Source: Acidimicrobiaceae bacterium (GTDB taxonomy: Bacteria; Actinomycetota; Acidimicrobiia; Acidimicrobiales; Aldehydirespiratoraceae). Taken from it: DNA of 64,000 nt. The notes under the pieces are model-generated. The model saw only the letters and a program-made list of their open reading frames with translations. It was not told the origin of the DNA and made no database searches. The stretch covers positions 1-64,000 of the forward strand of contig VXTM01000052.1 of the NCBI GenBank assembly GCA_009837445.1. The letters are read 5' to 3'. This document shows, in pieces, positions 44,755 to 61,586 of the stretch. Positions within the stretch are counted from its first letter, which is position 1; each line of letters opens with the position of its first letter. The position numbers and the translations under genes are program-made.

Positions 44755-44776
44755 AGGCCGGCCGGCGCGGCGGCCT
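44755..44776. terminator. GC-rich hairpin between convergent genes
   Basis: AGGCCG and CGGCCT pair across a 10-nt GC-rich loop immediately after the aldehyde dehydrogenase stop and before the convergent aminotransferase stop at 44780. No T-tract follows on either strand, so Rho-dependent or bidirectional attenuation is more likely than a classic intrinsic terminator. Confidence 0.4.
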
Positions 44777-44779
44777 GGG

Positions 44780-46099
44780 CTATGGCGATGGCAACGCGCC
44801 TAGGGCGGTGTCGACGGCGTTGATGAGTTGTTCGATCTCGGGTTCGCCCATCGGTGTGGAGACCGCTCCGGTGCAGCTGTAGATCAAGAGGATGCCGGCG
44901 TTGAGCAGAGCATCGAAGAACTGTTGAAGGCGGGCTGCCTGTTCGAGGCTTGGGTAGGTGTCGCGATAGTGGCGGGGCGCTTCGGGTTGCATGTGGATGC
45001 GGAACATTGAGCCCGCTCCGGTGACGCTGGCGCCCATGCCGCGCCGGTCGATGACATCGGCGATGCCTTCTCGTGCCAGCTGTCCAAGCCGGTTGATGCG
45101 CCGGACCTCGTCAGCATCGAACATGTCCATGGCGACAAGGCCCGCTGTGAGGGTGATCGGGTTGGCCGAGAACGTGCCGGAGTGCGGCATGACGTAGCGG
45201 TCGCCGTGGGGGTTCATGACACTCATGATCTCGGCGCGGCCTGCTACCGCACCTACGGGGAAGCCACCGCCGATGATCTTGCCGAGTGCAGTGAGATCCG
45301 GGGTGAGGCCGTAGTGCTGCTGAGCTCCGCGGTGGCTGCTTCGGAACGTCACCACCTCATCCGCGATGAGCAGCGCCGAGTTGCGAGTTGCCCAGTTCCT
45401 TAGAGCGGCGACGTATTCGGGTTCGGCTGGACACAGTCCAGCGCGGTGCGGCATGACATCGAGCAGCACGCAGGCGATCTCGTCGGCGTGGCGGTTCAGG
45501 ATCCGCAGCGTGAGATCGGTGTCGTTGAAGGGCACGACGACGACATCGTCGAGCACCGACTGTGGTGTGCCCTCAGCGACGGGCACGCTGGCGGGGTCGG
45601 CTATGGGGCCCCAGCTGTAGGGGGTGGAGGTCTGGCTGACCTCGGCGTAGTCGTAGGTTCCGTGGTAGGTGCCTTCCGCTTTGGCGACCTTGGGGCGGCC
45701 CGTGAACGCTCTCGCAGCTTTGATGGCGCACATGACGGCCTCGGTGCCGGAGTTGACGAACCGGATCTGCTCGAAGCTGTGGACCCGTTCGCACAGGTGC
45801 TCCGCCAAGCGGAGTTCGACTTCGGTCGCGAGGGTGTGGGCCGTCCCTCGGCGCAGCTGTTTGGTGACGGCCGCGACGATCGCGGGATTGCTGTGGCCGT
45901 GAATCAGCGATGCCATGTTGTTGGCGAAGTCGATGCGCTCAGCGCCTTCGACGTCGGTGATACGACAACCCGATGCGTGGGCTGCATAGAGGGGGTGGGG
46001 CTTGCGCAGCACCGTGTTGCGACTGACACCGCCGGGCATGACCTTCAGAGCACGCCGGTAGAAGGCTTCGGACTGGGTGGCGCGGGGGGTTTCCGTCAT
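44780..46099 (-). CDS. Class III aminotransferase (glutamate-1-semialdehyde mutase-like)
   Basis: A 439-residue PLP fold-type I enzyme. It has MPGGVSRNTVLRKPHPLYAAHASGCRITDVEGAERIDFANNMASLIHGHSNP at the N terminus, FVNSGTEAVMCAIKAARAFTGRPKVAKAEGTYHGTYD, Asp in LIADEVVTFR, and the PLP lysine in LGKIIGGGFPVGAVAG. It is GSA-like in sequence, but the gene sits in a catabolic operon away from heme genes. Beta-amino-acid aminotransferases belong to this same subgroup, which suits the neighbouring aminomutase and CoA-transferase. GGAGA 8 nt before ATG 46099 fixes the start; a longer frame would overlap scoB. Confidence 0.85.
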   Translation of the reverse strand: MTETPRATQSEAFYRRALKVMPGGVSRNTVLRKPHPLYAAHASGCRITDVEGAERIDFANNMASLIHGHSNPAIVAAVTKQLRRGTAHTLATEVELRLAEHLCERVHSFEQIRFVNSGTEAVMCAIKAARAFTGRPKVAKAEGTYHGTYDYAEVSQTSTPYSWGPIADPASVPVAEGTPQSVLDDVVVVPFNDTDLTLRILNRHADEIACVLLDVMPHRAGLCPAEPEYVAALRNWATRNSALLIADEVVTFRSSHRGAQQHYGLTPDLTALGKIIGGGFPVGAVAGRAEIMSVMNPHGDRYVMPHSGTFSANPITLTAGLVAMDMFDADEVRRINRLGQLAREGIADVIDRRGMGASVTGAGSMFRIHMQPEAPRHYRDTYPSLEQAARLQQFFDALLNAGILLIYSCTGAVSTPMGEPEIEQLINAVDTALGALPSP

Positions 46100-46128
46100 G
46101 GTTTGTTCTCCGATCATGGGATCCCGCT

Positions 46129-46833
46129 TCACTCGCTGGGCGCCGAGTTGCCGTCCGGGTGCGATTCGCGGTGGGTGCTTCGCTGGTCGTGAAGAGGGGC
46201 GGCGGTGAGTCCTGCGACCTCGGCAAGAGTCACCCCGGGCGCCAGTTCACGCACCGCGAGTCCCTGGGGGGTTATGTCTATGACGGCGAGGTCGGTATAG
46301 ACGCGGTCCACGACGCCTCGACCGGTGAGCGGGTAGCGGCATTCGTTGACCAGCTTGGGTTCGCCTGCGCGGGTGCAGTGTCGGGTCATCACGTACACCG
46401 CTTTGACGCCTGAGACGAGGTCCATGGCCCCACCCACTGCCGGCACGGCGCGGGCGGCTCCGGTCGACCAGTTAGCCAAGTCGCCGTTGGCGGCGACTTC
46501 GAGCGCGCCGAGCACGCAGATGTCTAGGTGGCCGCCGCGGATCATCGCGAAGCTGTCGGCGTGATGGAAGAACGACGCGCCCGGCGCTGCGGTGACGGGT
46601 TGCTTGCCGGCGTTGATGAGTTCGGTATCTTCCTCGCCGGGTGGCGGTGGGGGTCCCATTCCCAGGAGTCCGTTCTCCGTGTGCAGGATCACCTCCTTGT
46701 CTTCGGCGATGCACTCGGCGATGGTCTCGGGCATGCCGATGCCGAGGTTCACATACGCGCCGTCGGGGATGTCGCGCGCGACCCATCGGGCGATCTCCCG
46801 GCGGTCGAGCGCTTGCGGGGTGGTTCTTGTCAT
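46129..46833 (-). CDS. 3-oxoacid CoA-transferase, subunit B
   Basis: A 234-residue family I CoA-transferase beta subunit. YVNLGIGMPETIAECI (about residues 26-41) is followed by the catalytic-Glu motif LHTENGLLGMGPPP (about 50-63), with VLGALEVAANGDLANW further on. The alpha/beta pair moves CoA from a donor such as succinyl-CoA to a 3-oxoacid. It overlaps the alpha subunit by ATGA. The 3' end extends about 15 residues past the conserved core. Between it and the aminotransferase lie 29 nt carrying that gene's ribosome binding site. Confidence 0.9.
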   Translation of the reverse strand: MTRTTPQALDRREIARWVARDIPDGAYVNLGIGMPETIAECIAEDKEVILHTENGLLGMGPPPPPGEEDTELINAGKQPVTAAPGASFFHHADSFAMIRGGHLDICVLGALEVAANGDLANWSTGAARAVPAVGGAMDLVSGVKAVYVMTRHCTRAGEPKLVNECRYPLTGRGVVDRVYTDLAVIDITPQGLAVRELAPGVTLAEVAGLTAAPLHDQRSTHRESHPDGNSAPSE

Positions 46834-47540
46834 AGCCAGCCTGTTTCGCTCCTGGAGGGATCGAGCCATTGGGGGGAGCGGTCTATCAGCACTACGCGGT
46901 CCACGAAGATGCCTGGGGTGACGACGGCTTCGGGATCAAGCGACCCGAGACCCACGACAGCGCTGGTCTGTGCGATGGTGGTTTCAGCTGCGGTGGCCAT
47001 CAGCGGAGCGAAGTTGCGGGCGGTCTTGCTGTAGACGAGGTTTCCGTGACGGTCCGCTGCGGCGGCCTTGATCAGAGCCACATCAGCGCCAAGGGCGTGC
47101 TCGAGCACGCACTCTCGGTCATCGAACCGTCCGTGTGGCTTGCCCTGGGCGAGGCTTGTGCCGACCGCGGTCGGTGTGTAGAACGCCGGGATGCCCGCAC
47201 CTGCGGCACGGATGCGCTCCGCAAGGGTTCCCTGCGGCACCAGTTCCAACCCGATGCGTCCGGCCCGATATTGCTCGGCGAACACCTCGGAGTCCGCGCT
47301 GCGCGGATAGGAGCAGATCATCTTGGCGACTCGGCCTGCCTTGATGAGAGCGGCCAGTCCGGTGGTTCCGCTGCCGGCGTTGTTGCTGATGACCGTGAGA
47401 TCACCGGCGCCCTGCTCGATGAGGGCGTCTATCAACTCGACCGGGCTGCCGGCCTCGCCGAACCCCCCGACCATGATGGTTGCGCCGTCGCCGATGTCGC
47501 GCACCGCGGCGGACGGATCGGCGAACCGCTTGTCGATCAC
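46830..47540 (-). CDS. 3-oxoacid CoA-transferase, subunit A
   Basis: A 236-residue alpha subunit with GATIMVGGFGEAGSPVELIDALIEQGAGDLTVISNNAG (about residues 18-55), the glycine-rich CoA site, and a later PAFYTPTAVGTSLAQGKPHGRFDDRECVLEHALGADVALIKA. It forms the heteromer with subunit B. GTG start 10 nt downstream of the kamA stop; translation is probably coupled. Together with aminomutase and aminotransferase genes it suggests that a 3-oxoacid is produced and activated here. Confidence 0.9.
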   Translation of the reverse strand: MIDKRFADPSAAVRDIGDGATIMVGGFGEAGSPVELIDALIEQGAGDLTVISNNAGSGTTGLAALIKAGRVAKMICSYPRSADSEVFAEQYRAGRIGLELVPQGTLAERIRAAGAGIPAFYTPTAVGTSLAQGKPHGRFDDRECVLEHALGADVALIKAAAADRHGNLVYSKTARNFAPLMATAAETTIAQTSAVVGLGSLDPEAVVTPGIFVDRVVLIDRSPQWLDPSRSETGWL

Positions 47541-47550
47541 AGCTGGGCTG

Positions 47551-48990
47551 CTAGCTCGACACTGCGGCGAGCTCCTGCAGTCTCGCCGACTTGAACCGCA
47601 CGTAGTCGAACAGGCCGGCTTCGTCGAAGAGGACCCGGTCCTCGTAGTCGTCGAACCACAGCGCCTCGGGGTTGCGGCCGACGATGCACATCTTGCCGCG
47701 GTCGGGAGCGTCGGCCGCGTTGCGCAGGATCTTGAACACAACGAACCCGTTCTCGCTGCCTGGCAATCCTTCGATGGGCTTGTCGGACACCGCGGCGACC
47801 TCTGTCTTGCCCTTGTAGTGGGTGATCGACAGCCGGGCGTGGTTCTCGACACCGGAGAGGCCCTTCTGGGAGTCGTTGAGGATCTGCCAGGCGGTCTCGA
47901 TGGGCACGTTGAAGGCCCGGTAGGCGACGATGTCGCGCCCGCAGAAGAAGTAGTGGTTCTCCACCGAGACCCGCTTGAGGGTGCGCTGCAGGATCCGCAG
48001 CGCGTCCGGGTCGTCGTTGACGCCTCTGATGATGGGCGACTGGTTCTCGACGCTGATCCAGCCCCGCGACACGACCGCGTCCATGGCCCGTCGACTGTTC
48101 CGATGCCAAACAGGGAACCCTCCGGAGTCCTCGATGTAGCCGCCTTCGCCGTCTTTGGCGAGCAGTTCGTCGGGGTGGTTGAAGTGCGTCATGAGCCTGA
48201 ACCCGACCTCGGGGTAGGTCTCATGGAACCGGTCGAGCATCTCCAAGAACGCGTCGTCGAACCGGTCGGGGTGGAACGCGAGTTCTTTGGTGCCGAGCCG
48301 GATCGCTTCCACGCCGGCTTCGGCGAGCGCGGTGAACCAGGCGGCCAGCTTGGAGTTGGGCAGCACCATCGGGTCGCCACCCGACAGCAGCATCTCACGC
48401 AGCTTCTCACGGCCCGACTCGGGGTGGACTCCGCCGTTGGCGGCGACCGCCGCGTTGTGGGCCCGCACATAGGCGACGACGTCCGGGATCTTGGCGATGC
48501 CCTTCTTTTCGACGGTGCCGTCTTGGCGTTCGATGTCCTTGCGGGCGATCAGTTCCTCGCGGTAGCAGAATCGGCAGTGCGCCGAGCACGTCGACACCAC
48601 ATACAGCAGCCCCATCTCATACTTGTGGAGCAGACCCTCCACTGGGCTGAAGTCCATCTGGTATCCGGGATCCTCTGATCCTTCGAGGTTCAGCGTCTCA
48701 TCCGGCGTGGCTTTGACGAGCTTCTGCAACGCCGGGCTGTTGCGGGCGAGTTCGAAATAGTGGCGGGTCATCTTGACGGGCATGCGCTGTTCGATGTCGC
48801 GTTCGGTGCCGCGTATCTGCAGCAGCCCGTCGAGTTCGGATTGGCTGTAGAAGCTGCGCATGTCCTCGGGCGCAGTGCTGTTGACGAACGGGTCGAGGCC
48901 GTTGAGGATCTGGCGGTCATAGCGCGGGTTCTCCACGTGGTCGAGAACCCGCAGTTCTCTCTGGGTGGGCTCGTACTTGGCGGCTCGCAT
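47551..48990 (-). CDS. KamA-family radical SAM aminomutase (substrate uncertain)
   Basis: A 479-residue protein of the lysine 2,3-aminomutase family. The radical SAM cluster motif is Cys-135, Cys-139, Cys-142 in TCSAHCRFCYR, SGGDPMVLP (about residues 203-211) follows, and a GKTEV near 394-398 corresponds to the PLP-lysine region of LAM. Members move an amino group from C2 to C3 using PLP and S-adenosylmethionine. From memory of the Clostridium enzyme, its lysine-binding Asp293 aligns with Arg-352 here, and Asp330 with His or Tyr near 391-392, so lysine is unlikely. AGGAG 6 nt before the ATG. First gene of the kamA-CoA-transferase-aminotransferase block. Confidence 0.85.
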   Translation of the reverse strand: MRAAKYEPTQRELRVLDHVENPRYDRQILNGLDPFVNSTAPEDMRSFYSQSELDGLLQIRGTERDIEQRMPVKMTRHYFELARNSPALQKLVKATPDETLNLEGSEDPGYQMDFSPVEGLLHKYEMGLLYVVSTCSAHCRFCYREELIARKDIERQDGTVEKKGIAKIPDVVAYVRAHNAAVAANGGVHPESGREKLREMLLSGGDPMVLPNSKLAAWFTALAEAGVEAIRLGTKELAFHPDRFDDAFLEMLDRFHETYPEVGFRLMTHFNHPDELLAKDGEGGYIEDSGGFPVWHRNSRRAMDAVVSRGWISVENQSPIIRGVNDDPDALRILQRTLKRVSVENHYFFCGRDIVAYRAFNVPIETAWQILNDSQKGLSGVENHARLSITHYKGKTEVAAVSDKPIEGLPGSENGFVVFKILRNAADAPDRGKMCIVGRNPEALWFDDYEDRVLFDEAGLFDYVRFKSARLQELAAVSS

Positions 48991-49177
48991 GGTTTGCTCC
49001 TGTCGCTAGATTCGGTGCCGGAGTTCGGTGCTGAGATCGGTTGCCGTGTGAGGTGGTTGGTCTGGTGTCGGCCTCCAGGGCCGGGCGGGGCGCTCGATCC
49101 GTTTGGTCTCATCGTCGGAACCATCGAAGACTGAGACCGGGCTACGAGTCCCCGCCCGGCTGTCCTGGAGGGGATTC

Positions 49178-49204
49178 ACCGCGCCGATGTCGTGTCGGCG
49201 CGGT
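49178..49204 (-). terminator. Strong hairpin after livK
   Basis: ACCGCGCCGA and TCGGCGCGGT form a perfect 10-bp stem around a 7-nt loop, three bases past the livK stop codon on the minus strand. A long T-run is absent. It separates the importer block from the kamA block; the remaining 48991-49177 shows only the kamA ribosome binding site and no clear promoter. Confidence 0.65.
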
Positions 49205-49207
49205 CTG

Positions 49208-50596
49208 TTAGCCGTCGAACGTCGACGCCGGGTAGAACTCCACGTTCACCCATTCGCCGTTAATGGCCTGCTGGATGGTGTAGGCGCCTGAGACAGTGCC
49301 CGACTCGTCGAACACCAGCGGCCCCGACGCGCCCTCATAGTTGATGGTTCCGCCGGAGGCGAGGATGTCGCGTCCCTCCGCGAAGGTGGACACCTTGGTG
49401 CCGTCGCTGTGCGCGACGCCGCGGATGGTCGAGTTGATCCCGGCTCCGTCGCAGCTGTCGGCGGCCTCCAGCGACAGTGCCACCAAAGTGATCATGTCGA
49501 AGGAGTTGGGCGCGAACGGATCGCCTGCCTTGTCGTAGCGCTCCTCGAAGGAGATGAACTCCGGCAGCGATGGGTCGGCATCGGCGAACTCGACGAAGGC
49601 CTTGTCGTTGATGAGCTCCGCTCCCACAGCATCGAATATCTCCGGCACTGCGAGGTCAGCGGTGAACAGCCACTCGCCCTCGAAACCGCCTGCGACGGCC
49701 TCCTTGATGACGGTCACGCCGGATTCCTGGCCACCGGCGAGGAAGATCGCGTCGGGGTTGTTCGCCAGCACGGTCGTCAGCTCGGCCTGATAGGACGGTT
49801 GGCCGGGGTTGTAGACGATGAAGTCGGTGATCTCTATTCCGGCTTCGAGCACTTCGGCGCGAGCGACCTCCGCGGGGGAGATCGTCGACTCCTCGTTCTG
49901 GATCAAGAACGAGACCGACTCGTAGCCGCGGCTCGACAGCCACAGACCCGACGCAGCTCCGTCACCGAGGTCCGATGACACGGTGCGGTACACGAAGTTG
50001 CCGCCCAACTCGTTGAGGTTGATCGTGCCGGCGTACGGCGACATGATCACGACCTCCTCGCGGTGGGCGAGATCGACGAGCGCGACCATCACACCCGAGG
50101 TCGGACCCATGACGGCGACCGCTCCTTCGCTCTCGATCATGTTGGTGGCCTCGCGTATGCCGGTCTCGGCGTCGCCTCCGGTGTCGGCCACCACGGTGCG
50201 GATCGTTCCGCAGCGGGTGCCGCCGGCTGCGTTGATCTCGTCGACGCCGAACTCGATGGCGTCAGCGACGATCTTGCCGAACTCGCCGAGTTCGCCTGTG
50301 AGCGGAACGAGCACACCGACGGTGATCTCACCGACATCGGCGGGCTCAGCGGGCTCGCTGGGCTCGTCGTCGGCCGGTTCAGCCATGTCGTCAGCGGGCT
50401 CGGCGTCGTCAGCGGGCTCGGCAGGTTCGTCGTCCGTCGGCTCGGCGTCGCCGGTGGCGGCGGGTTCGCTGGGAGTCTCGGTTGCGTCTGTCGCAGGCTG
50501 TTCGTCGTCGTCGTCGTCGCCGCAGGCCGCGGCAACCAGCGACAACGCGAACACGGCCGCGAAGAGCCGCAAGCAGATGGACTTGGTTGTATTCAT
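49208..50596 (-). CDS. livK: Branched-chain-type ABC substrate-binding lipoprotein
   Basis: A 462-residue lipoprotein. A signal peptide ends Val-Ala-Ala-Ala-Cys, an acidic Asp/Glu/Pro/Ala repeat linker spans about residues 27-90, and a type I periplasmic-binding fold of the LivK/Peripla_BP_6 kind begins ITVGVLVPLTGELGEFGKIVADAIEFGVDEINAAGG. It binds the imported solute outside the membrane. The family takes amino acids, amides, ureas and aromatic acids, so the solute is not defined. AGGAGG precedes the ATG. It is the last of five transporter genes, after livF. Confidence 0.9.
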   Translation of the reverse strand: MNTTKSICLRLFAAVFALSLVAAACGDDDDDEQPATDATETPSEPAATGDAEPTDDEPAEPADDAEPADDMAEPADDEPSEPAEPADVGEITVGVLVPLTGELGEFGKIVADAIEFGVDEINAAGGTRCGTIRTVVADTGGDAETGIREATNMIESEGAVAVMGPTSGVMVALVDLAHREEVVIMSPYAGTINLNELGGNFVYRTVSSDLGDGAASGLWLSSRGYESVSFLIQNEESTISPAEVARAEVLEAGIEITDFIVYNPGQPSYQAELTTVLANNPDAIFLAGGQESGVTVIKEAVAGGFEGEWLFTADLAVPEIFDAVGAELINDKAFVEFADADPSLPEFISFEERYDKAGDPFAPNSFDMITLVALSLEAADSCDGAGINSTIRGVAHSDGTKVSTFAEGRDILASGGTINYEGASGPLVFDESGTVSGAYTIQQAINGEWVNVEFYPASTFDG

Positions 50597-50666
50597 GGTT
50601 GATCCCCTCCTTGGGGTATTGGTGTGTCAGACCGGTGGCGGTCGGCCGCCGGTCTCTTGCCGCTCC

Positions 50667-51383
50667 TCAAGGAGCCTCTTGGCGCTCTTCGAGGAGCAGT
50701 TCCCTCAGACGGCCGGGTTTGAGCAGTTCCCGGCTGTCGAACTCGTCGGTGATGCGTCCGCCTTCGACGAGGTAGGTCCTCGCAGAAGCGGCGAGGATCA
50801 GGTCAGGGTTCTGTTCGACGACCCACACGACGCCCATCCCCGCATCGGCGAGGTCTCGGACCCACTCGACCATCTGCTTAACGAATAGCGGCGCGAGTCC
50901 CGCCGCGGGTTCGTCAAGCAGCATCACTCGGGGGTCGCCGACAAGCGCGGAACTGACAGCAAGTGTCTGGCGCTCCCCGCCAGAGAGCGTCGCGGCGCGC
51001 TGTGACGCTCTCTGAGCCAGGATCGGGAACCGCTCAAATACCGCCTCTAGGCGGTTCTTGGTGCCCCGATACGACAGTGCGGCTATGCGCAGGTTGTCGC
51101 GCACTGACAGCTCCCGGAACACGTTGTGCTCCTGGGGCACGTAGCCGACACCGTGGGCTGCGACATCCTGCGCGGTGCGGCCCGTGATGTCTGCGCCGTC
51201 GAGTACAACGGTGCCTTCGGAGGGCTGCAGGTGCCCTGCGATGGTCTTCATCAGGGTGCTCTTGCCGGCTCCGTTGGGGCCGAGCACCACCACGATCTCG
51301 CCGGCTGCGACCGCCAGGTCGACGCCGTGGAGGATCGTGACTCGGCCGTAGCCAGACACGAGGCCGCGTACGTCAAGCAGCAT
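50667..51383 (-). CDS. livF: Branched-chain-type ABC transporter ATPase LivF
   Basis: A 238-residue ATPase with Walker A GPNGAGKSTLM (about residues 35-45), GVGYVPQEHNVFRELSVRDNL (Q-loop, LivF type), signature LSGGERQTLAVSSALV, Walker B VMLLDEPAAGLAP and switch VVEQN. LivF and LivG form the heterodimer that drives the permease. Its start overlaps the livG end by 11 bp. A spacer of 70 nt before livK carries that gene's ribosome binding site. Confidence 0.92.
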   Translation of the reverse strand: MLLDVRGLVSGYGRVTILHGVDLAVAAGEIVVVLGPNGAGKSTLMKTIAGHLQPSEGTVVLDGADITGRTAQDVAAHGVGYVPQEHNVFRELSVRDNLRIAALSYRGTKNRLEAVFERFPILAQRASQRAATLSGGERQTLAVSSALVGDPRVMLLDEPAAGLAPLFVKQMVEWVRDLADAGMGVVWVVEQNPDLILAASARTYLVEGGRITDEFDSRELLKPGRLRELLLEERQEAP

Positions 51384-52173
51384 CGCCGCCCCCTAGGTAC
51401 GCGGAGATCACAGCAGGATCGGCGCGTATGTCAGCCGGTGGGCCCTGCGCGAGCAGTGCACCGTCGGCGAGCACGAGGATGTGGTCGGCCAACGCGAGCA
51501 GGAAATGCAGGTTGTGCTCGACGACGACGAGGGTCATCCCGCCGCTGTGGAGGTCCTGTAGCAGAGCAGCGAGTCGCTCCTGCAGGCCGGGGTGAACGCC
51601 GGCGGTGGGTTCATCCAGCAGCAGGACGGTCGGGTCGCGCACCAGCTGTCGTGCGACTTCGAGCATTCGCAGTTCCCCGCCAGAGAGGTCACTCACACGA
51701 GCCGCAGCTCGTTCGTGCAGACCGACGCGCCGCAGGATCGCCTGCGCCGCTTCGACGATTTCGGTCTCGTGATTTCGCCAGCTGCGCCCGAACGCCCACC
51801 GCAGGCTCTCTCCTGGGCTGGTCGCGCCCGCGACGACGTTCTGGAGCACTGTCAGCGACTCGAAGGCCCGAGGGGTTTGGAAGGTGCGGCCGATGCCCTG
51901 CTCGGCGATGGTGTCGGGGCTGGAGCGGGTGATGTCGTGTCCGTTGAAGAAGACCGACCCGGTGTCTGAGGTTTGAACACCGGACATGAGATCGAAGGTC
52001 GTGGACTTGCCGGCACCGTTCGGGCCGATCAGCCCGACGAAGGCACCCCGGTCGACGCCGAAACTCAGGCCGTCGCTGCCTCCGACTGCTTGCAGACCCG
52101 AGAACCGCTTCGAGATGTGTCTCGCCTCCAGCAGGGCACCGTTGAGCGCGGCCGCGCCGCCCGGGAGAGTCAC
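51373..52173 (-). CDS. livG: Branched-chain-type ABC transporter ATPase LivG
   Basis: A 266-residue ATPase: Walker A GPNGAGKSTTFD (about residues 51-62), GIGRTFQTPRAFESLTVLQNV (LivG-specific Q-loop), signature LSGGELRMLEVARQLV, Walker B VLLLDEPTAGVHPG and the C-terminal ISAYLGGG typical of LivG. The signature reads LSGGELR. The GTG start overlaps the livM stop by GTGA. Confidence 0.92.
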   Translation of the reverse strand: MTLPGGAAALNGALLEARHISKRFSGLQAVGGSDGLSFGVDRGAFVGLIGPNGAGKSTTFDLMSGVQTSDTGSVFFNGHDITRSSPDTIAEQGIGRTFQTPRAFESLTVLQNVVAGATSPGESLRWAFGRSWRNHETEIVEAAQAILRRVGLHERAAARVSDLSGGELRMLEVARQLVRDPTVLLLDEPTAGVHPGLQERLAALLQDLHSGGMTLVVVEHNLHFLLALADHILVLADGALLAQGPPADIRADPAVISAYLGGGDAA

Positions 52174-53956: not shown

Positions 53957-53963
53957 CGAAGCT

Positions 53964-54305: not shown

Positions 54306-55762
54306 CAGGTGTCCTCCATGACGTTGACGATCGAGTAGGCGACCTCGAGCGAGCGGCCCCGTACTGGGTCTCGCAGAGCGACCTCAAAGCTGGGATGGAA
54401 CTCGAAACCCCCTGCGGCGGGGATGGTTCCCGACAGGATCACCGTCCCGGCCATGGGCCCCCCGAAGCGGTTCTCGACGAGTTCGATCAGCTCGCGAGGG
54501 GGACGCAGCGCCGCCACCGGGCCCGCCTGATAGCAGTCCTGGGCGGCTGCGGGGGTTCGGGCCTCGAAGGTCAGGTCGTCCCAGTGGGCTTCGATGTCGT
54601 GCAGGCGCCACACGCTTGTTGACAGGACCTTGGGGCAGTTCTGTTTGGAAGCGTTGATGTCGACGGTCTCCAACGCCCGGTCGGTGTGATCCGATGCAGC
54701 CGCCACCCAGACCTCGTTGCTGTCGATGAGCAGCGCGAACTCGACTTCCCCGCACGACGATGCGGTAGTTGCCTCGATGCGGGAGGCTGTCGTCAGCCGA
54801 TCAGCGCCAACCACGAAATAGGCGGGCACCTCGTCGGGTGGTTCGATTCCCTCTTCTTGGAGTTTCGCGATGTAGGCGTCGATGGCGTCGGTGTCTCTAG
54901 CGGTGTAGCCGGCGAGGATCACCCGCTTGGCGGTGAACCGGACAGCGGTGCCGTCATCGCGGCGCAGCACCAGGTCGTTGTCGGGATCGCCGAGTAGCCG
55001 CCGGTCGACGAGTGCCGGGAACCGGCTGCGGGCGGTGTGGGCCTCATCGAGTTGCACCGGCGCCGACACGAAGCCCGGATCGTCGCCGAGTGATGCGACG
55101 GTGATTCCCCACGGGTCGATGACCGCGGATCGTCCGCACAGCGTCGTGCCGCGGCCGGTGGCGCCGACGCCGTTGCACGCGAACACGAACGCCTGGTTCT
55201 CGATTGCTCGGGCCCGCAGCAGGGTGCTCCACGCCTCGACTCGAGGATGGGGCCAGGCGGACGCAACGATGAACCCGGTCGCGCCGTGTTCGCACATGCG
55301 GCGGAACAGCTCCGGGAAGCGCAGGTCGTAGCAAACCGCCATCCCCAGGCGGCCCAACGGCGTGTCGGCCACCACAACCTCGTCACCGGGGCTCAGCAGC
55401 CGCTGCTCCTGGCTGTCGAACCCGAACAGGTGCATCTTGCGGTACCTGGCGAGCTCGGCGCCGTCGGGTCCGAACAGAACCGAAGTGTTGTAGAGACACC
55501 CACCGTCGGCTTCGACCAGAGAACCCGCATGCACGCACGCGCCGACCCGTGCAGCGGTCTCGGACAGCGCTTCGAGCAGCGCGGGTGTGTCCTCAGCGGC
55601 TTGCGTGTACTGGTCGAACGCGAAGTAGCCGGGATGCCACATCTCCGGCAGAACGATCAGATCCGAGCCTGCGGCCGTGTCGATCCACCCGCGCACGAAG
55701 TGGGCCGGGCTCGGCGACGCGGCGGACGCGTCGGCGGGCATCTGGAGCAGCGAGACCCTCAT
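54305..55762 (-). CDS. Nitrilase-superfamily hydrolase fused to DUF2848-like domain
   Basis: A 485-residue two-domain protein. Residues 1-265 form a carbon-nitrogen hydrolase with the catalytic triad Glu in VLPEMWHPGYF (about residue 40), Lys in RYRKMHLFG (about 109) and Cys in MAVCYDLRFPELFR (about 144). Residues about 270-485 are DUF2848-like: KRVILAGYTARDTDAIDAYIAKLQEEGIEPPDEVPAYF, SSCGEVEFALL, SDHTDRALET, SKQNCPK and TVILSGTIPAAGGFEF. The last looks like the end of FAH-family folds. The nitrilase domain probably hydrolyses an amide or nitrile. Start and stop overlap both neighbours (ATGA, TGATG), so the fusion is unlikely to be an assembly error. Confidence 0.85.
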   Translation of the reverse strand: MRVSLLQMPADASAASPSPAHFVRGWIDTAAGSDLIVLPEMWHPGYFAFDQYTQAAEDTPALLEALSETAARVGACVHAGSLVEADGGCLYNTSVLFGPDGAELARYRKMHLFGFDSQEQRLLSPGDEVVVADTPLGRLGMAVCYDLRFPELFRRMCEHGATGFIVASAWPHPRVEAWSTLLRARAIENQAFVFACNGVGATGRGTTLCGRSAVIDPWGITVASLGDDPGFVSAPVQLDEAHTARSRFPALVDRRLLGDPDNDLVLRRDDGTAVRFTAKRVILAGYTARDTDAIDAYIAKLQEEGIEPPDEVPAYFVVGADRLTTASRIEATTASSCGEVEFALLIDSNEVWVAAASDHTDRALETVDINASKQNCPKVLSTSVWRLHDIEAHWDDLTFEARTPAAAQDCYQAGPVAALRPPRELIELVENRFGGPMAGTVILSGTIPAAGGFEFHPSFEVALRDPVRGRSLEVAYSIVNVMEDT

Positions 55763-58137
55763 GAGGAGGCTCCGCTGCCGTTGGCGGCGTCGATGTAGCC
55801 GAGCACTCGTTCGGGGGTCAGAGGCAGGCGGTTGACTGTGACTGTCCCGAGATGTGAGAGGGCATCCTCAACCGCCGAGGCGATCACCGCGCCTGGGGCG
55901 ATCGCTCCTCCCTCGCCCATGCCCTTGAGTCCGCCGATGGTGTGAGGGGAGGGCGTCTGGAGGTGAGCGACCCGGAAGTCCGGGATGTCGCTCATCACCG
56001 GCACGAGGTAGTCCGCGAACGTGGTTGACAGCGGCTGGCCCGCCTGGTCGTAAAGGAACTCCTCGAACAGGGCCGTACCGATGCCTTGGGCGACGCCACC
56101 GAAGATCTGACCTTCGACGATCGTCGGGTTGATCATCGGGCCGCAGTCCTCGACTACTGCGTAGCTCAAGACTCGGGACTTGCCGGTCAGTGGGTCGATC
56201 TCGACGGATGCCAAATGCGCGGCGTTGGTGTACGCACCGGTTCCGGGGTGCGCGTCGTAGGTTCTCGATGCTTCCAGGCAGGGCTCGACGCCTTCCGGCA
56301 GTCGTTCGGGGCGCTGATAGATGAGCCGGCACAGTTCGCTCGTATTGAGGAACTGGTTGGGGCTGCCGGCGACCGACACCCGACCCGATTCGACGACCAT
56401 GTCTTCAGGGGCTGCTTCGAGGATGTGCGCCGCTACCAATCGCAGTGTGTCCGCGACTGCGTCAGCGGCCTTTGTGACGGCACCGCCCGCGAGCACCGCG
56501 GAGCGGCTGGCGAAGGTGCCGGCGCCGTAAGCAACCTGTTCGGTGTCGCCGTATTCGACGCGGATCTGTTCAAGGTCCAGCCCAAGCCGGTCCGCTGCGA
56601 CCTGTGCCAGGGTGGTCTCTAGTCCTTGGCCGTGGTCGTGTATCGATGCCGACACGACTGCTGTCCCGGAGGCGTCGAGGCGCACCTTGGCGGTCTCATA
56701 CCCGAACACGATCGGAACGCCGCGCTGCTTGAACTCCTGGGTGGTGTGGGCGGTCTGTTCTGTGAACACCGCCAGCCCCACCCCCACCAGCCGTCCCGCT
56801 GCTCGGGCATCGGCTTGGCGCTTGAGCAGGCCTTCGTGGTCGCCGAGTTCCAGCACGGCGTCAAGCGACTCAAGGAGCGATCCACTGTCATAGACGAGCC
56901 CCGACGGGGACCGCCACGGATAGTCACCTTCCGAGAGCAGGTTGCGGTTGCGGATCTCCACGCGGTCGACACCGAGGTGACGGGCGATCTGGTCCAGGAG
57001 CCGCTCGATCGAGAAGCAGGCCGCGGGGCGGGCGACCCCCCGGTATGCGCCGTACGGGGTCTTGTTGGTGCACACCGACGTGGACGCGACCGAGTACTCG
57101 CGGATCCTGTAGGGGCCCGGAAGGATGCCCATGGCCATCCCGCCGTCCATGGTCGCGGTCCACGGGAACACCGAGTAGGCGCCCATGTCGACGGCTATGT
57201 CGGCCTCAAGAGCCAGGATCGTGCCGTCGTCGTCGAAGTAGCCCGTCACGGTGTGGCGGTGCTCTCGGGAGTGATGAGCCGCTACGAAATGCTCACGGCG
57301 GTCCTCGACCCATTTGACGGGCCGCCCCAACCGGCGCGCCGCCAAACAGCAGGCCACCTCCTCGGGATAGAGCTGGGCCTTGACTCCGAAACCGCCTCCG
57401 ACGTCGGGGGCGATCACCTGGATCAGGCTCTCGGGGACGCCCAGCGCCCAGGACAGCCCCGCCCGCACGAGATGGGGAATCTGGGTTGTTGTGTGGAGCC
57501 GGAACCGGCCCGTGCCGGGGTCGTGTTCCGCGACGCACGCCCGGTTCTCCATGGGAATGCCGCTGTGGCGCCCGTTGTGCAACTCGATCGACACCCGATG
57601 CGGCGCGGCCGAGCAGGTATCGCCGAATCCGTAGGTCTCTATCTGTCTGCGCACGAACGCGTTGTGTTGCCAGCCTGGATGCAGCGGCGCGCAGCCCGCA
57701 TCGAGGGCTGTGTCGATGTCCACGACGGTGGGCAGCGGGTCGAGGTGGGCCACCACCAGTTCAGAGGCGTCCTCGGCGAGGTACTCGTTGTCGGCGACGA
57801 CCATGGCGAGTGCTTCGCCCACATGGCGCACGCGATCCACGGCGAGGATCGGTTGAGCCGATTCCTGGAACCCGAGGTAGCTCGATACGCATCGCATCTC
57901 GGTGCCGGCGAAGTCTTCGCCGACGAACACTGCCTTCACGCTCTCAGCGGCAGCAGCGGCTTCGATGTCGAGACTGGCCACCGTGGCGTGCGCTTCGTGG
58001 GAGCGCACGAACTTCGCGGCGAGCACGCCAGCCGGGTTGATGTCGGCGACGTAGCGGCCGTCGCCTCGCAGCAGTCTGTCGTCTTGGCGGCGGGGCACCC
58101 TCGCCCCGAAGAAGCGGGGCGCCCCCTCAGTTGTCAT
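55759..58137 (-). CDS. Molybdenum hydroxylase large subunit (xanthine dehydrogenase/CoxL family)
   Basis: A 792-residue molybdopterin-binding subunit. ARVPRRQDDRLLRGDGRYVADI at the N terminus, APDVGGGFGVKAQLYPEEV, the active-site loop YGAYRGVARP (about residues 371-380), VVEDCGPMINPTIVEGQIFGGVAQGIGTALFEE and the catalytic Glu in GLKGMGEGGAIAPGA mark the family. The AYRGVAR loop is neither the AYRCSFR of true CO dehydrogenase nor exactly the AYRGAGR of form II proteins. It therefore hydroxylates an organic substrate with water, probably a heterocycle or aldehyde. ATG 58137 overlaps the small subunit gene by 11 bp. Confidence 0.92.
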   Translation of the reverse strand: MTTEGAPRFFGARVPRRQDDRLLRGDGRYVADINPAGVLAAKFVRSHEAHATVASLDIEAAAAAESVKAVFVGEDFAGTEMRCVSSYLGFQESAQPILAVDRVRHVGEALAMVVADNEYLAEDASELVVAHLDPLPTVVDIDTALDAGCAPLHPGWQHNAFVRRQIETYGFGDTCSAAPHRVSIELHNGRHSGIPMENRACVAEHDPGTGRFRLHTTTQIPHLVRAGLSWALGVPESLIQVIAPDVGGGFGVKAQLYPEEVACCLAARRLGRPVKWVEDRREHFVAAHHSREHRHTVTGYFDDDGTILALEADIAVDMGAYSVFPWTATMDGGMAMGILPGPYRIREYSVASTSVCTNKTPYGAYRGVARPAACFSIERLLDQIARHLGVDRVEIRNRNLLSEGDYPWRSPSGLVYDSGSLLESLDAVLELGDHEGLLKRQADARAAGRLVGVGLAVFTEQTAHTTQEFKQRGVPIVFGYETAKVRLDASGTAVVSASIHDHGQGLETTLAQVAADRLGLDLEQIRVEYGDTEQVAYGAGTFASRSAVLAGGAVTKAADAVADTLRLVAAHILEAAPEDMVVESGRVSVAGSPNQFLNTSELCRLIYQRPERLPEGVEPCLEASRTYDAHPGTGAYTNAAHLASVEIDPLTGKSRVLSYAVVEDCGPMINPTIVEGQIFGGVAQGIGTALFEEFLYDQAGQPLSTTFADYLVPVMSDIPDFRVAHLQTPSPHTIGGLKGMGEGGAIAPGAVIASAVEDALSHLGTVTVNRLPLTPERVLGYIDAANGSGASS

Positions 58138-58612
58138 CGGCTCGGCCCGTGGCGCTGTCGAGGGCGCGCTCGACGGCGTCGACGATGTGGTGGTAGCCGG
58201 TGCAGCGGCACAAATGGCCCGAGAGGTGCTCGCGGATCTCGTCGCGGCTGCAGGCCGGGTTCGTCGCGGCAAGTTCCACGACGCTCATGAGCAGCCCCGG
58301 TGTGCAGAATCCGCACTGCAGCCCGTGGCAGTCCTTGAACGCCAGTTGTATGGGATGCAAGCCGGCGCCGTTCGCGGAGAGCGATTCGACGGTCTCGACG
58401 CTGCGGGCGTCGGCCTGAATGGCGAGCATCAGGCAGGACCGCGCCGAGGCGCCGTCCACCAGCACGGTGCAGGCGCCGCAGTAGCCGTGTTCGCAGCCCA
58501 CATGGGTGCCGGTGAGACCCAGGCCGTCGCGCAAGAAATCCGACAGCAGCGTGCGGGGATCCACCTGCGCCGCGGTGCGCTCGCCGTTGACCGTAAGCGA
58601 GATCTCAGCCAT
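58127..58612 (-). CDS. Molybdenum hydroxylase small [2Fe-2S] subunit
   Basis: A 161-residue iron-sulfur subunit. The plant-type cluster is GCEHGYCGACTVLVDG (about residues 41-56) with a later Cys, and the second cluster is CGFCTPGLLMS...HLCRCTGYHHI (about 101-140). It carries electrons from the Mo site to FAD in the medium subunit. The ATG overlaps the medium subunit stop by 8 bp, and its own end overlaps the large subunit, indicating a single complex. Confidence 0.94.
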   Translation of the reverse strand: MAEISLTVNGERTAAQVDPRTLLSDFLRDGLGLTGTHVGCEHGYCGACTVLVDGASARSCLMLAIQADARSVETVESLSANGAGLHPIQLAFKDCHGLQCGFCTPGLLMSVVELAATNPACSRDEIREHLSGHLCRCTGYHHIVDAVERALDSATGRADDN

Positions 58613-59477
58613 CGCGGGCACCCGCTTCGTTCGCGCTGAAGGCTTGTCGGGCGGCGCGCAGGGTCTCGGCATGGACTAGGCGCTTGCGGAACGCCGACGA
58701 TCCGTGGATGTCGCTGATGGGGTCGACCGAGTCAGACGCAGCCTCGGCGGCGTCGGCCGCGGCTGTGGCTGACCCGCCGACTAGGGCAGCTTCGGCTTCG
58801 CGGCATCGCACCGGCCGGTCCGCCACACCCGCGATCGCGACACGCGCCTCGCAGATCTCACCGGCCTCAACGGCGCAGGCGACCGCGACGGCCACCGTCG
58901 CGAAGTCCCCGGTGCGGCGCTGGAACTCCGAAAACCCCCAGCGGTGGGCGCAACGGGTACTGAACCGCAGCGAGGTGACGATCTCATCGGGTCTCTTGGC
59001 GGTGGTGTACACCGACTCGAAGAAGTCCTCCGCGGTGATACTGCGCCAACCGCGCACCGACGCGAGCCCCACCTCACCGTCGAGCGCCAGCAGCACGATC
59101 GGCCATTCCGCTGCGGGGTCGGCGTGAGCGACGCTGCCGCCGACCGTGCCGCGGTTGCGGATGGCGCGATAGCCGACATAACCGGCGGCTCGTCTGGCGA
59201 GCGGCACCGACGCCGCCACCACGGCGTCGGTCTCCATCCGGTAGTGGGTGACCATCGCGCCCACCTCGACGCTGCCGTTTGTGCTGGCGATCGAGTCCAG
59301 CCCCGGAACCCGGCCGAGATCGATCACATGGCTCGGGGCGGCCAGGCGAAGGTTGAGCATCGGCAGAAGGCTCTGCCCTCCCGCCAACACCACTGCCTCG
59401 TCGGCGGTCTCGTTGAGGGTCTCCAGCAGCTCCGGAAGCGTCCGGGGGGCGTGGTAGGCGAATCTCGGCGGCTTCAT
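58605..59477 (-). CDS. Molybdenum hydroxylase FAD-binding medium subunit
   Basis: A 290-residue FAD subunit of the CoxM type. AVVLAGGQSLLPMLNLRLAAPSHVIDLGRVPGL (about residues 28-60) and YRAIRNRGTVGGSVAHADPAAEWPIVLLALDGEVGLAS (about 103-140) are the two FAD-binding motifs. It passes electrons to an acceptor such as a quinone or NAD. ATG 59477 is the first gene position of the long minus-strand operon; an upstream extension of the frame is non-conserved. The promoter region with palindromes lies beyond it. Confidence 0.92.
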   Translation of the reverse strand: MKPPRFAYHAPRTLPELLETLNETADEAVVLAGGQSLLPMLNLRLAAPSHVIDLGRVPGLDSIASTNGSVEVGAMVTHYRMETDAVVAASVPLARRAAGYVGYRAIRNRGTVGGSVAHADPAAEWPIVLLALDGEVGLASVRGWRSITAEDFFESVYTTAKRPDEIVTSLRFSTRCAHRWGFSEFQRRTGDFATVAVAVACAVEAGEICEARVAIAGVADRPVRCREAEAALVGGSATAAADAAEAASDSVDPISDIHGSSAFRKRLVHAETLRAARQAFSANEAGARDG

Positions 59478-59588
59478 GTGCTGCGCCGCCCTCCTCCCTT
59501 GTCCGGCGACTGCTGAGGTCCACCGCACATGCACGCACGGCCCGTGCAGCCCGGTGGTCTGTAGTGAACCACATGTACAATCTAAAAT

Positions 59589-59612
59589 CAAATATTTGCA
59601 ATTTCAAATTGC
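59589..59612. promoter_or_regulatory. Overlapping palindromes, candidate GntR operator
   Basis: CAAATATTTG (59589-59598) runs directly into the 15-base inverted repeat GCAATTTCAAATTGC (59598-59612). The segment is AT-rich against a GC-rich background and lies between the divergent medium-subunit and LLM genes. A related ATTTCATATTG occurs before the GntR-family gene. This is consistent with one regulator controlling both directions and itself; inference only. Confidence 0.5.
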
Positions 59613-59660: not shown

Positions 59661-60647
59661 ATGCGTTTCGGAGCCTGGATCCCATCGTTCGCCTACCCGC
59701 AACTCGACTACGACAGGGCCCGCCGAGGCACTGATGCGTTCTCCAAGACAGCCAACGAGCACGACATCGACCTGTGGGTGATCGACCACCTGCTGCACGC
59801 CCCGGGCCTCTATGGCATGGCGTGGCTCGAGCCCATGACCGTGCTAACTCACGCCGCCGCGGTCGCTCCCGACGTCGAGATGGTCGGCACCGGGATCCTG
59901 GTGCTGCCGCTGCGGGACCCGGTGCTGCTCGCCAAGGAGGTCGCCACCATGGACTACCTCACAGGCGGCCGCTACCAGTTCGGCATCGGACCGGGTTGGT
60001 ACGGCCCGGAGTTCGAAGCCACCGGAACCCACATCAGCGAACGCGGCAAGCGCACCGACGAGATCGTCGAGGCGGTCCGGCTGCTTCTCGCCACCCCTAA
60101 CGCGTCATTCGAGGGCCGCTACTACTCCTTCGAGGATGTCACCATCGAGCCCCGACCCCCGAAGATGCCTAACGTGTGGGTCGCCGGCGGGTCGCGCATC
60201 CCCGATGGAGCGTTCGACAACGATGTGCCCGTACTCGCCAGGACGGTGCGTGACCGGATCCTCGGGGCCGACTGGTGGCTGTCGCGATGCTCAGGCCAGC
60301 AAGAATGGGTGCATCGCGACTGGCAGCTCATCCAGGATGCCGCGGCTGAGCGCGGCGTCCCCTGCCCCCGGTTCGCGCACTGCAACTTCATCCATGTCGT
60401 CGACACCAGCGACCCAGAGAGGGCACGCGCTGAGCAGCACATCTACTTCGAGCAAGCAATGGGCAGCCACCGCACCCATGAGCATCTCGAGAAGAGCTAC
60501 TTCTTCGGGTCGATCGACGAGATCGTCACTCGCTTGCGCGACCTCGCTGACGGTGGCTGCGAATACGTCGTGCTGGGACCCACCAGCGACGACCCCGCAC
60601 AACTCGAATTGCTGAGCCGCCTGGTGATCCCCCAGGTCAACTCCTGA
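59661..60647 (+). CDS. LLM-class flavin/F420-dependent monooxygenase
   Basis: A 328-residue luciferase-like (beta/alpha) barrel protein. MRFGAWIPSFAYPQLDYDRARRG starts it, VGTGILVLPLRDPVLLAKEVATMDYLTGGRYQFGIGPGWYGPEFEATGTHISERGKRTDEIVEAVRLL (about residues 75-140) is the family core, and PNVWVAGGSR follows. Members use FMN or F420 to oxygenate or reduce small substrates, including opening of N-heterocycles. It is divergent from the Mo hydroxylase operon across the palindromic region. About 75 nt past the palindromes a CAGAGAAGGA ribosome binding site precedes the ATG. Confidence 0.9.
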   Translation: MRFGAWIPSFAYPQLDYDRARRGTDAFSKTANEHDIDLWVIDHLLHAPGLYGMAWLEPMTVLTHAAAVAPDVEMVGTGILVLPLRDPVLLAKEVATMDYLTGGRYQFGIGPGWYGPEFEATGTHISERGKRTDEIVEAVRLLLATPNASFEGRYYSFEDVTIEPRPPKMPNVWVAGGSRIPDGAFDNDVPVLARTVRDRILGADWWLSRCSGQQEWVHRDWQLIQDAAAERGVPCPRFAHCNFIHVVDTSDPERARAEQHIYFEQAMGSHRTHEHLEKSYFFGSIDEIVTRLRDLADGGCEYVVLGPTSDDPAQLELLSRLVIPQVNS

Positions 60648-60691: not shown

Positions 60692-61384
60692 CTAGGGGCT
60701 GTCCTCTTCCAGCAGGCCCGGTGTAATCGTCGCGGTTGCGAACTCCCGGTGGGCGGTCATCAACCGGATCAGCTTCTCGGCGTCGCGGGCACGGCACGCG
60801 TCGATCAGGCCTAGGTGCTGGTCCAGCGACACCTCCTGAACGTCGGTGTCCTTGTAGAGGTACAGCACCCGGTAGTGGTCGGTGTGTTCCCAAAGCCGCT
60901 CAATCTCGCGGACCAGGATCTTGCGCCCCGAAGCCCGGTAGGGCACGAAGTGCATCTCGCGATGGGCGACACTGGCCGTCCACAGGTCTCCCGCGGCGAG
61001 CGCTTGTTCCATCTCGACGCGGTACGCGTCCATCCGAGCGATGTCGGTGTCGGTGATGTTGGCGGCCCCAAGCCGGATCGCCTCGCACTCCAGCAGCAGA
61101 GTGATGTGCTGGAGTTCCGTGAACTCCTCGCGCGAGTGGCGTGCCACCCAGTAGCCGCGGCGCGGCTCGTTGATAACGACGCCTTCGTTCTGCAGTTGGC
61201 GCAGCGCCTCGCGCACCGGTACGGGACTCACGCTGCATGTCTTGGCGACAGCATCGACGGGGATCTTTGCGCCGGGGAGAAGCTCGCCGGTGATGATCAG
61301 CTTGCGTAGGTAGTGCAGCACGTTCTCATGAACTGACGGCTGCGGCACCGGCGGTGCCGAGGTGAACACTGCGTCTGCGGCCAC
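60692..61384 (-). CDS. GntR/FCD-family transcriptional regulator
   Basis: A 230-residue regulator with an N-terminal winged helix-turn-helix (VHENVLHYLRKLIITGELLPGAKIPVDAVAKTCSVSPVPVREALRQLQNEGVV, about residues 18-70) and a C-terminal FCD ligand domain. In the FCD domain His residues in VAHREMHF and SLDQHLGLI, with Asp upstream, fit the metal/ligand pocket. FCD regulators of this group usually sense an organic acid or catabolite. It is convergent with the LLM gene, and the AT-rich upstream region carries a matching operator-like site. Probable local regulator of the catabolic island. Confidence 0.9.
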   Translation of the reverse strand: MAADAVFTSAPPVPQPSVHENVLHYLRKLIITGELLPGAKIPVDAVAKTCSVSPVPVREALRQLQNEGVVINEPRRGYWVARHSREEFTELQHITLLLECEAIRLGAANITDTDIARMDAYRVEMEQALAAGDLWTASVAHREMHFVPYRASGRKILVREIERLWEHTDHYRVLYLYKDTDVQEVSLDQHLGLIDACRARDAEKLIRLMTAHREFATATITPGLLEEDSP

Positions 61385-61500
61385 GGCTTGAGGATCCCCC
61401 TTTCAGGGCTCCGGCTGTTTGGCTCCCGCAGGTGCGCACATGCGGGAACCGCAAGAGCCTGGAGGCGACACCATATCGCCGGGCTCCTCTGCAAAACGAT

Positions 61501-61511
61501 ATTTCATATTG
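61501..61511. promoter_or_regulatory. Candidate operator matching 59601-59611
   Basis: ATTTCATATTG differs at one base from ATTTCAAATTG in the palindrome before the LLM gene. It lies 117 nt upstream of the regulator ATG in an AT-rich patch and could be an autoregulatory site. Confidence 0.35.
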
Positions 61512-61556
61512 GAAACATCTGATTCGCAGCACCGTCGGGTCTGCTTGGCCGCCCGC

Positions 61557-61586
61557 GAGTTCCAGCACATAGCCGTCGACTGGTAG
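61557..61586 (+). repeat. Right copy of duplicated aldehyde dehydrogenase 3' end
   Basis: GAGTTCCAG then ACATAGCCGTCGACTGGTAG, in the same orientation and reading phase as the end of the gene at 43330-44754, translates to Glu-Phe-Gln-His-Ile-Ala-Val-Asp-Trp-stop. Upstream of it no further aldehyde dehydrogenase sequence can be recognised, so only the 3' tip remains. The rest of 61385-61614 holds the AT-rich regulator promoter region and no gene. Confidence 0.55.

Follow-up and report, generated by a model that had tools for sequence, protein, structure and literature searches.

The stretch of DNA analysed here (the window; 64,000 nucleotides, positions 1 to 64,000 of contig VXTM01000052.1, assembly GCA_009837445.1) comes from an uncultured Acidimicrobiaceae bacterium and carries an island of 14 minus-strand genes (44780-59591), running from the medium subunit of a molybdenum (Mo) hydroxylase, whose gene ends at 59591, to a class III aminotransferase (AT3) at 44780. 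The island is a join of two modules that also occur separately. One, the core, consists of a KamA-like radical SAM enzyme, the A and B subunits of a CoA-transferase, and AT3, often accompanied by an RpiR-type gene and a thiolase. The other, the front half, comprises the Mo hydroxylase, a luciferase-like (LLM) oxidoreductase, a nitrilase-DUF2848 fusion, a cupin, and a Liv importer. We propose that the core would degrade 2-aminoadipate by way of 3-oxoadipate and that the front half would supply the 2-aminoadipate. The observations behind this scheme are the gene content and synteny, the residues of the active site, and the gene partners; from these we infer all of its reactions and both substrates. 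Taken as a whole, the scheme has a slightly better than even chance of being correct.

2-Aminoadipate is a product of lysine breakdown. In the proposed core route, the KamA-like enzyme would transfer the amino group of L-2-aminoadipate from C2 to C3 to give 3-aminoadipate, which AT3, a relative of beta-transaminases, would convert to 3-oxoadipate. The CoA-transferase would then form 3-oxoadipyl-CoA, and a PcaF-like thiolase encoded elsewhere in the genome would release succinyl-CoA and acetyl-CoA. The starting compound might be obtained in two ways. In one clade of KamA-like enzymes, here called lysine-linked, it would be derived from lysine through piperideine-6-carboxylate (P6C). In the island clade, the front half would make it from an imported six-membered N-heterocycle, perhaps through opening of the 2-aminoadipate lactam.

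The KamA-like protein is related to lysine 2,3-aminomutase (LAM); LAM 2a5h is its only sequence match in the PDB (phmmer). It scores 95 bits with TIGR00238 (cut-off 199), all six NCBIfam matches fall below their cut-offs, and a Pfam search returned nothing. A structure model (AlphaFold2, pLDDT 81) has 2a5h as its top Foldseek match (E 3.2e-15), the next other protein being at 1.1e-4. The radical SAM motif CX3CX2C is present, with C135, C139, and C142 invariant in 37/37 sequences. Arg144 and Lys395, which align with LAM Arg134 and Lys337 (which we take to be the alpha-carboxylate residue and the pyridoxal phosphate lysine, respectively), are invariant in 82/82; the available 2a5h stretch stops before Lys337, and Lys395 was placed via EpmB and plasmid LAMs.

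The residues that presumably grip the side-chain amine of lysine in LAM, Asp293 and Asp330, are both replaced. Arg352 lies opposite Asp293 with no gaps nearby in the phmmer alignment, the same pairing is obtained with MAFFT when Escherichia coli EpmB and plasmid LAM-like proteins are included, and Arg occupies this position in all 82 sequences. Residue 388, opposite the presumed Asp330, is Ser in 70 of the 82 and Thr, Ala, or Val in the other 12, and never Asp; this position was read through a second Sinorhizobium protein, the 2a5h stretch ending earlier. The loss of both Asp residues, with Arg at the 293 position, suggests that the substrate is likely to be acidic. The known glutamate 2,3-aminomutase has Lys at the Asp293 position. 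Lysine itself was rejected as the substrate on account of these replacements and of partner genes that convert the side-chain amine to an acid.

Asp is kept at the 293 position in EpmB and in one Sinorhizobium LAM. Two plasmid proteins annotated as lysine 2,3-aminomutase, from Sinorhizobium medicae (locus L097, 3965-5044) and Amycolatopsis (locus L098, 3647-4933), have Arg there, and thus lysine may not be their substrate either.

The island clade (14 copies, core-less paralogues excluded) and the lysine-linked clade (56 copies, three of them core-less) are separated by only three fixed differences, at positions 15, 237, and 324 (fixed-position rule, >90% and >85%). None of these is among the active-site residues named above (Arg144, Arg352, 388, and Lys395), and the small number of differences suggests that the island copy retains the lysine-linked type. 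By comparison, 12 core-less paralogues differ from both clades at 388 and 390, and 10 of them also at 353, next to Arg352. One such copy is the second KamA-like gene of the window's own genome (G000:C21:148154-149551; loci L002 and L090), which is 75% identical, has no core genes nearby, and carries Asn353, Thr388, and Val390, as do nine other core-less Acidimicrobiia copies. These paralogues may catalyse another reaction.

The remaining enzymes could fit the proposed steps. AT3 scores 423 bits with 6k8h, compared with 350 for ForI, at most 235 for glutamate-1-semialdehyde aminomutases (GSAMs), and 201 for beta-phenylalanine aminotransferase. 6K8H, the nearest solved relative of AT3, is a Sphaerobacter thermophilus transaminase acting on beta-amino acids (PMC10589169). 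The thiolase tested, from the related locus L014, has pcaF as its best model (472 bits, missing the cut-off of 597) and passes the general thiolase model TIGR01930; a homologue, 74% identical, is encoded in the window's own genome. In CoA-transferase B, Glu65 of the ENG motif is presumably catalytic.

When genome contigs were scanned once for the KamA-like protein, 161 relatives were found, the best 80 of which were kept as a locus set. Of these 80 loci, 64 have CoA-transferase A within 6.5 kb of KamA; the corresponding numbers are 63 for B, 59 for AT3, 46 for an RpiR-type gene, and 25 for a thiolase match. The complete core, with A, B, and AT3 all within 5.5 kb of KamA, is found in 59/80. The remaining 21 comprise 14 loci whose stretch contains none of the three partners (11 of these extend 10 kb to either side of KamA), six partial ones, and L005, which ends just after KamA. 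By title, the loci belong to Actinomycetota, Planctomycetota, Acidobacteriota, Gemmatimonadota, Verrucomicrobiota, Pseudomonadota, and Krumholzibacteriota, with a few lacking a phylum. Complete cores occur in six of these phyla; the sole Krumholzibacteriota locus, L047, is partial, its CoA-transferase A, B, and AT3 lying 8-9.5 kb from KamA. The KamA-like gene is widespread but patchy: it is present in 5 of 198 genomes sampled from the window's class, the window's own genome included. A thiamine-pyrophosphate-binding protein recurs near it (L009-L012, L021, L055, and L091). A plasmid of the cultured Mesorhizobium sp. 113-3-3 carries KamA (63.5%), the ferredoxin FdxA, AT3 (63% to L050), and a gene annotated as a CoA-transferase.

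Lysine-side genes adjoin or track the core outside the island clade. In L080, a single strand encodes KamA, CoA-transferase A and B, AT3 (match 12852-14141), P6C dehydrogenase (P6CDH; 14195-15691, 816.6 bits against a cut-off of 730), and a lysine-dehydrogenase-like protein (15707-16795). The latter has no NCBIfam match; its label is our reading of its PDB relatives, which are saccharopine-dehydrogenase-type and include PH1688, and of its place beside P6CDH in L080 and in the KamA-positive planctomycete G225 (G225:C7:43455-46146), where a 41% identical gene directly precedes P6CDH. In L019, the core has as neighbours a 75% identical homologue of this gene and an ABC importer that, read by eye, is apparently of the polar amino-acid type. 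P6CDH lies on the same contig as the core together with lysine 6-aminotransferase, 8-11 kb away, in G230, and with a lysine aminotransferase and a thiolase, about 20 kb away, in G245. L080 is the only one of the 82 loci that holds a close P6CDH.

At the genome level, P6CDH was sought in 34 KamA-positive genomes (chosen from 51, with clades taken from the KamA tree) and in 20 KamA-negative genomes of the window's order. It is present in 19/21 genomes of the lysine-linked clade (missing from G209 and G243), in 0/13 of the island clade, and in 4/20 controls; the difference between clades gives a Fisher value of 1e-7, for genomes that are not independent. In a matched test within the class of G229, P6CDH occurs in 7/8 KamA-positive and 39/142 KamA-negative genomes (p = 0.0011), or in 6/7 of the former without G229, which was known beforehand. 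In those seven KamA-positive genomes, the gene is not close to KamA, lying about 0.9 Mb away on the same contig in G279 and on other contigs in six. Lysine 6-aminotransferase was rejected as a general partner of the core because it is found in only 10/51 KamA-positive genomes (0/20 KamA-negative genomes of the window's order), and the lysine-dehydrogenase-like gene (5/35 KamA-positive and 3/20 KamA-negative genomes searched) is no general marker. In the island genomes, lysine aminotransferase, P6CDH, and the lysine-dehydrogenase-like gene were each found in 0/8 at the thresholds used. These genomes would therefore need another supply of 2-aminoadipate.

The synteny of the island is solid. The initial annotation had listed the same 14 minus-strand genes, divergent LLM gene, and GntR/FCD gene, all confirmed here, and had taken them for a catabolic island, an idea that homologues scattered without a common neighbourhood would have spoken against. 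The opposite was found. Eight other Acidimicrobiia loci (L003-L006, L008, and L013-L015) have the joint arrangement, most of its genes being about 60-100% identical, which argues for a conserved unit beyond chance. L005 ends 148 bp past KamA, L013 starts inside the gene for the Mo hydroxylase large subunit (MoL), and the other joint loci are bounded by the fetched flank. L003, titled Acidimicrobiaceae, has a KamA 99% identical to the window copy and thus adds little independent weight. MoL orthologues (72-91%) are present in 7/7 joint-locus genomes searched (the L005 genome was left out); in G207, the frame has two stops, both ahead of the inferred start. No orthologue was found in eight other locus-derived KamA-positive genomes, four class-sample KamA-positive genomes, and five KamA-negative genomes; some paralogues of 39-44% are present. 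In 6/6 genomes with fetched flanks, the gene for the Mo hydroxylase medium subunit (MoM) has LLM (83-97%) and GntR (71-99%) next to it, in the window's order (MoM, LLM, GntR) in G198 and G199, and with GntR adjoining MoM and LLM beyond it in G200, G201, G206, and G207.

The chemistry of the front half is speculative and forms the weakest step of the scheme. As the initial annotation had supposed a ring-hydroxylating enzyme, so the nearest PDB relative of MoL is quinoline 2-oxidoreductase (595 bits; next CoxL, 465). MoL has the motifs AYRG and GEGG; form I CO dehydrogenase was rejected, as MoL reads AYRGVAR and not AYXCSFR, which we take to be the motif of that enzyme. The nitrilase domain is nearest to Nit2-type structures, with Glu40, Lys109, and Cys144 invariant in 7/7. 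For the DUF2848 part, no PDB sequence match covers it, and the AlphaFold2 model is weak (pLDDT 61.8 overall, many DUF2848 stretches below 50), all 50 listed Foldseek matches being nitrilase-type. The best model for LLM, the F420-dependent TIGR03619, scores 139.6 bits and misses its cut-off of 166.9. Mo hydroxylases oxidise the carbon next to a ring nitrogen, and by chemical inference a six-membered ring bearing a carboxylate adjacent to the nitrogen would yield 2-aminoadipate on lactam opening. The likeness of MoL to quinoline 2-oxidoreductase, the intact Glu-Lys-Cys of the Nit2-like domain, and the absence of the lysine-side genes together led us to propose the front half as the supply.

Parts of the front half recur on plasmids, where nitrilase or amidase, DUF2848, and cupin accompany other hydroxylases with no KamA beside them. 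A Caballeronia plasmid carries, by annotation, an HpaB-type monooxygenase, flavin reductase, cupin, amidase, DUF2848, and Liv genes; an Arthrobacter plasmid has nitrilase, DUF2848, HpaB, Cupin_7, and flavin reductase; and a Natrinema plasmid has Mo hydroxylase genes (30-32%), DUF2848, cupin, and nitrilase. The joint island was not seen on plasmids among the best 25 and 15 records listed; those inspected have a single module or a portion of it.

The same separability raises the question of whether the two halves are mere neighbours, an N-heterocycle module beside an unrelated amino-acid module, in different operons answering to different inducers. This is a serious possibility, though well short of even. 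Each module is found without the other, 217 bp separate LivK from KamA, and an RpiR-type gene stands between the blocks in four relatives (L006, L008, L014, and L015), where the core may have its own regulation. Against this, eight other loci retain the joint order, and the genomes that have it are without the lysine-side supply genes. If the halves do belong together, the front half might instead act on P6C: the Mo hydroxylase would form 6-oxopipecolate, and the nitrilase would open this lactam to 2-aminoadipate, replacing P6CDH. Such a role would explain the missing P6CDH and the fused amidase, and would suit the usual site of attack of Mo hydroxylases. However, lysine aminotransferase and the lysine-dehydrogenase-like gene are equally missing, LLM, DUF2848, and cupin are left without a role, and the hydroxylase is nearest to the quinoline enzyme, all of which makes this version quite improbable.

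The main rival substrate for the core is glutamate. A glutamate 2,3-aminomutase would give 3-aminoglutarate, which transamination to 3-oxoglutarate, CoA transfer, and thiolysis would convert to acetyl-CoA and malonyl-CoA, while the front half would make glutamate or 2-oxoglutarate. An Arg opposite Asp293 is compatible with any acidic side chain, the nitrilase, whose domain is nearest to Nit2-type structures, resembles omega-amidases, and in neighbour clustering many cores lack an adjacent transporter cluster, which is what a common metabolite would lead one to expect. What speaks for 2-aminoadipate is that genes for P6CDH, lysine aminotransferase, and the lysine-dehydrogenase-like protein lie next to the core or co-occur with it and that the L014 thiolase best matches pcaF; no gene pointing to glutamate turned up, though no dedicated search was made. 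On this evidence, glutamate appears unlikely, and the assignment of 2-aminoadipate to the core is moderately supported.

Several observations weigh against the 2-aminoadipate scheme. Arg in place of Asp293 would suit glutamate equally, and the TM-score between the AlphaFold2 model and 2a5h is moderate (0.55-0.65). A homologue of one thiolase at E<=1e-90 is found in only 7/18 genomes. The lysine-side genes also occur without the core, P6CDH in the 39/142 and 4/20 KamA-negative genomes given above and close lysine-dehydrogenase-like homologues (72-75%) in 3/20. In the window's own clade, the link to aminoadipate would be by homology alone, since all lysine-side genes tested are absent. Three genomes of the Microthrix group (G202-G204) have the core, no MoL orthologue, and none of the three lysine-side genes; the scheme offers them neither supply, which weakens the front-half step further. 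The Mesorhizobium CoA-transferase is of another type, with no BLAST match to the core subunits at 1e-8. An acyl-CoA dehydrogenase that adjoins the core in L034 (12718-13899), and whose homologue adjoins P6CDH in G230 (G230:C1:62291-63472), has no role in the scheme. Finally, HglS, a known consumer of 2-oxoadipate that yields 2-hydroxyglutarate (PMC7286885), is not avoided by genomes with the core: this hydroxyglutarate synthase is present in 3/25 KamA-positive and 8/43 KamA-negative genomes with P6CDH (p = 0.73).

The initial annotation is thus partly supported. Its conversion of an amino-acid fragment to a CoA ester is supported by the core, and the island is real; the island is refined into two separable modules, and for the second block 2-aminoadipate can be proposed as the substrate, which the initial annotation did not consider deducible from sequence alone, on the basis of the active-site residues and of partners found elsewhere. 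A bolder reading would make the island one complete new pathway, in which an acid of the pyridine or quinoline type would be imported and then converted to L-2-aminoadipate by hydroxylation, ring opening, and deamidation, and a new radical SAM 2,3-aminomutase leads via 3-aminoadipate to the beta-ketoadipate end, the same core serving in at least six phyla for lysine degradation with no oxygen-requiring step of its own. This remains tentative and is more doubtful than the general scheme. The protein families are known; in the open-licence PubMed Central papers searched, neither the whole pathway, nor the pairing of an aminomutase with 3-aminoadipate, nor DUF2848 was found, and none of the papers listed for 3-aminoadipate and its synonyms concerns such a route, judged from the title and the opening of the abstract. 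If the scheme is correct, a widespread radical SAM family, represented here chiefly by metagenome-assembled genomes, would acquire a function, that of an aminomutase for an acidic amino acid; the scheme would add a route for lysine carbon that bypasses 2-oxoadipate and joins the beta-ketoadipate end, and DUF2848 would gain a pathway setting.

Table 1. Genes of the island and its flank in window coordinates, with supporting matches.
Feature	Position	Strand	Matches
AT3, class III (HemL/GSAM-like) aminotransferase; proposed 3-aminoadipate beta-transaminase	44780..46132	-	PF00202 (Aminotran_3); nearest structure 6k8h, 423 bits
CoA-transferase subunit B, ENG motif (Glu65)	46129..46869	-	TIGR02428 above cut-off
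CoA-transferase subunit A	46830..47540	-	TIGR02429 above cut-off; top PDB match 3cdk (SCOT subunit A)
KamA-like radical SAM enzyme; proposed L-2-aminoadipate 2,3-aminomutase	47551..48990	-	TIGR00238 below cut-off; sole PDB sequence match 2a5h
LivK-type binding protein	49208..50596	-	PF13458 (Peripla_BP_6)
LivF ATPase	50667..51383	-	PF00005
LivG ATPase	51373..52173	-	PF00005, PF12399
LivM permease	52170..53099	-	PF02653 (BPD_transp_2)
LivH permease	53096..54001	-	PF02653 (BPD_transp_2)
Cupin_7 protein, 113 aa	53964..54305	-	PF12973, 39 bits (cut-off 27)
Fused nitrilase-superfamily amidase and DUF2848, single 485-aa frame	54305..55762	-	PF00795 (CN_hydrolase), PF11010
Mo hydroxylase large subunit (MoL)	55759..58137	-	PF01315, PF02738, PF20256; top PDB match quinoline 2-oxidoreductase, 595 bits
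Mo hydroxylase [2Fe-2S] small subunit	58127..58672	-	PF00111, PF01799
Mo hydroxylase FAD (medium) subunit (MoM)	58605..59591	-	PF00941, PF03450
LLM (luciferase-like) oxidoreductase	59661..60647	+	PF00296 (Bac_luciferase); TIGR03619 best, below cut-off
GntR/FCD regulator	60692..61384	-	PF00392, PF07729

The core genes are closely packed, with a 4-bp overlap between AT3 and CoA-transferase B and 10 bp between the end of KamA and the inferred start of CoA-transferase A, a GTG within a longer open reading frame that reaches 47852. The start of MoL is likewise inferred, its frame extending to 58272. The window is contig C16 of its genome (G000), an assembly of 3.9 Mb in 52 contigs that is 93.8% complete. 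The G+C content of the island region (44-62 kb) is 0.64-0.68 per 2-kb block; outside it, the window's blocks lie at 0.69-0.74 except for four that fall below 0.69. Two plus-strand aldehyde dehydrogenase genes (41637-44754) run towards the island; the first scores 767 bits with HpaE, above the cut-off of 638, and the second is nearest to SSADH, below cut-off. Among the 80 loci, close homologues of both (98-99%) are found only in L003.

The proposed route resembles several known systems. With lysine 2,3-aminomutase (KamA/AblA), the KamA-like protein shares the CX3CX2C motif, the Arg for the alpha-carboxylate, the candidate pyridoxal phosphate lysine, and the predicted fold, but it is only 18-19% identical to 2a5h in the structural alignment, and both Asp residues for the side-chain amine are replaced. 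The logic is the same as in the beta-lysine catabolism of Pseudomonas B4, where, as reportedly found by Barker, acetylated beta-lysine is transaminated to a 3-oxo acid, converted to a CoA ester, and thiolysed, whereas an acidic amino acid would be the substrate of the core. The last two proposed steps are those of the beta-ketoadipate end (PcaIJ and PcaF), consistent with TIGR02428, TIGR02429, and the pcaF likeness of the relatives' thiolase; these two models also cover SCOT-type enzymes, however, and the nearest PDB protein to the core CoA-transferase is a SCOT. In the beta-ketoadipate pathway, 3-oxoadipate comes from an aromatic ring, while in the core it would come from an amino acid. The known routes for 2-aminoadipate, which pass through 2-oxoadipate to 2-hydroxyglutarate by HglS or to glutaryl-CoA, share the entry from lysine to 2-aminoadipate; the core route, in contrast, would involve neither 2-oxoadipate nor a decarboxylation.

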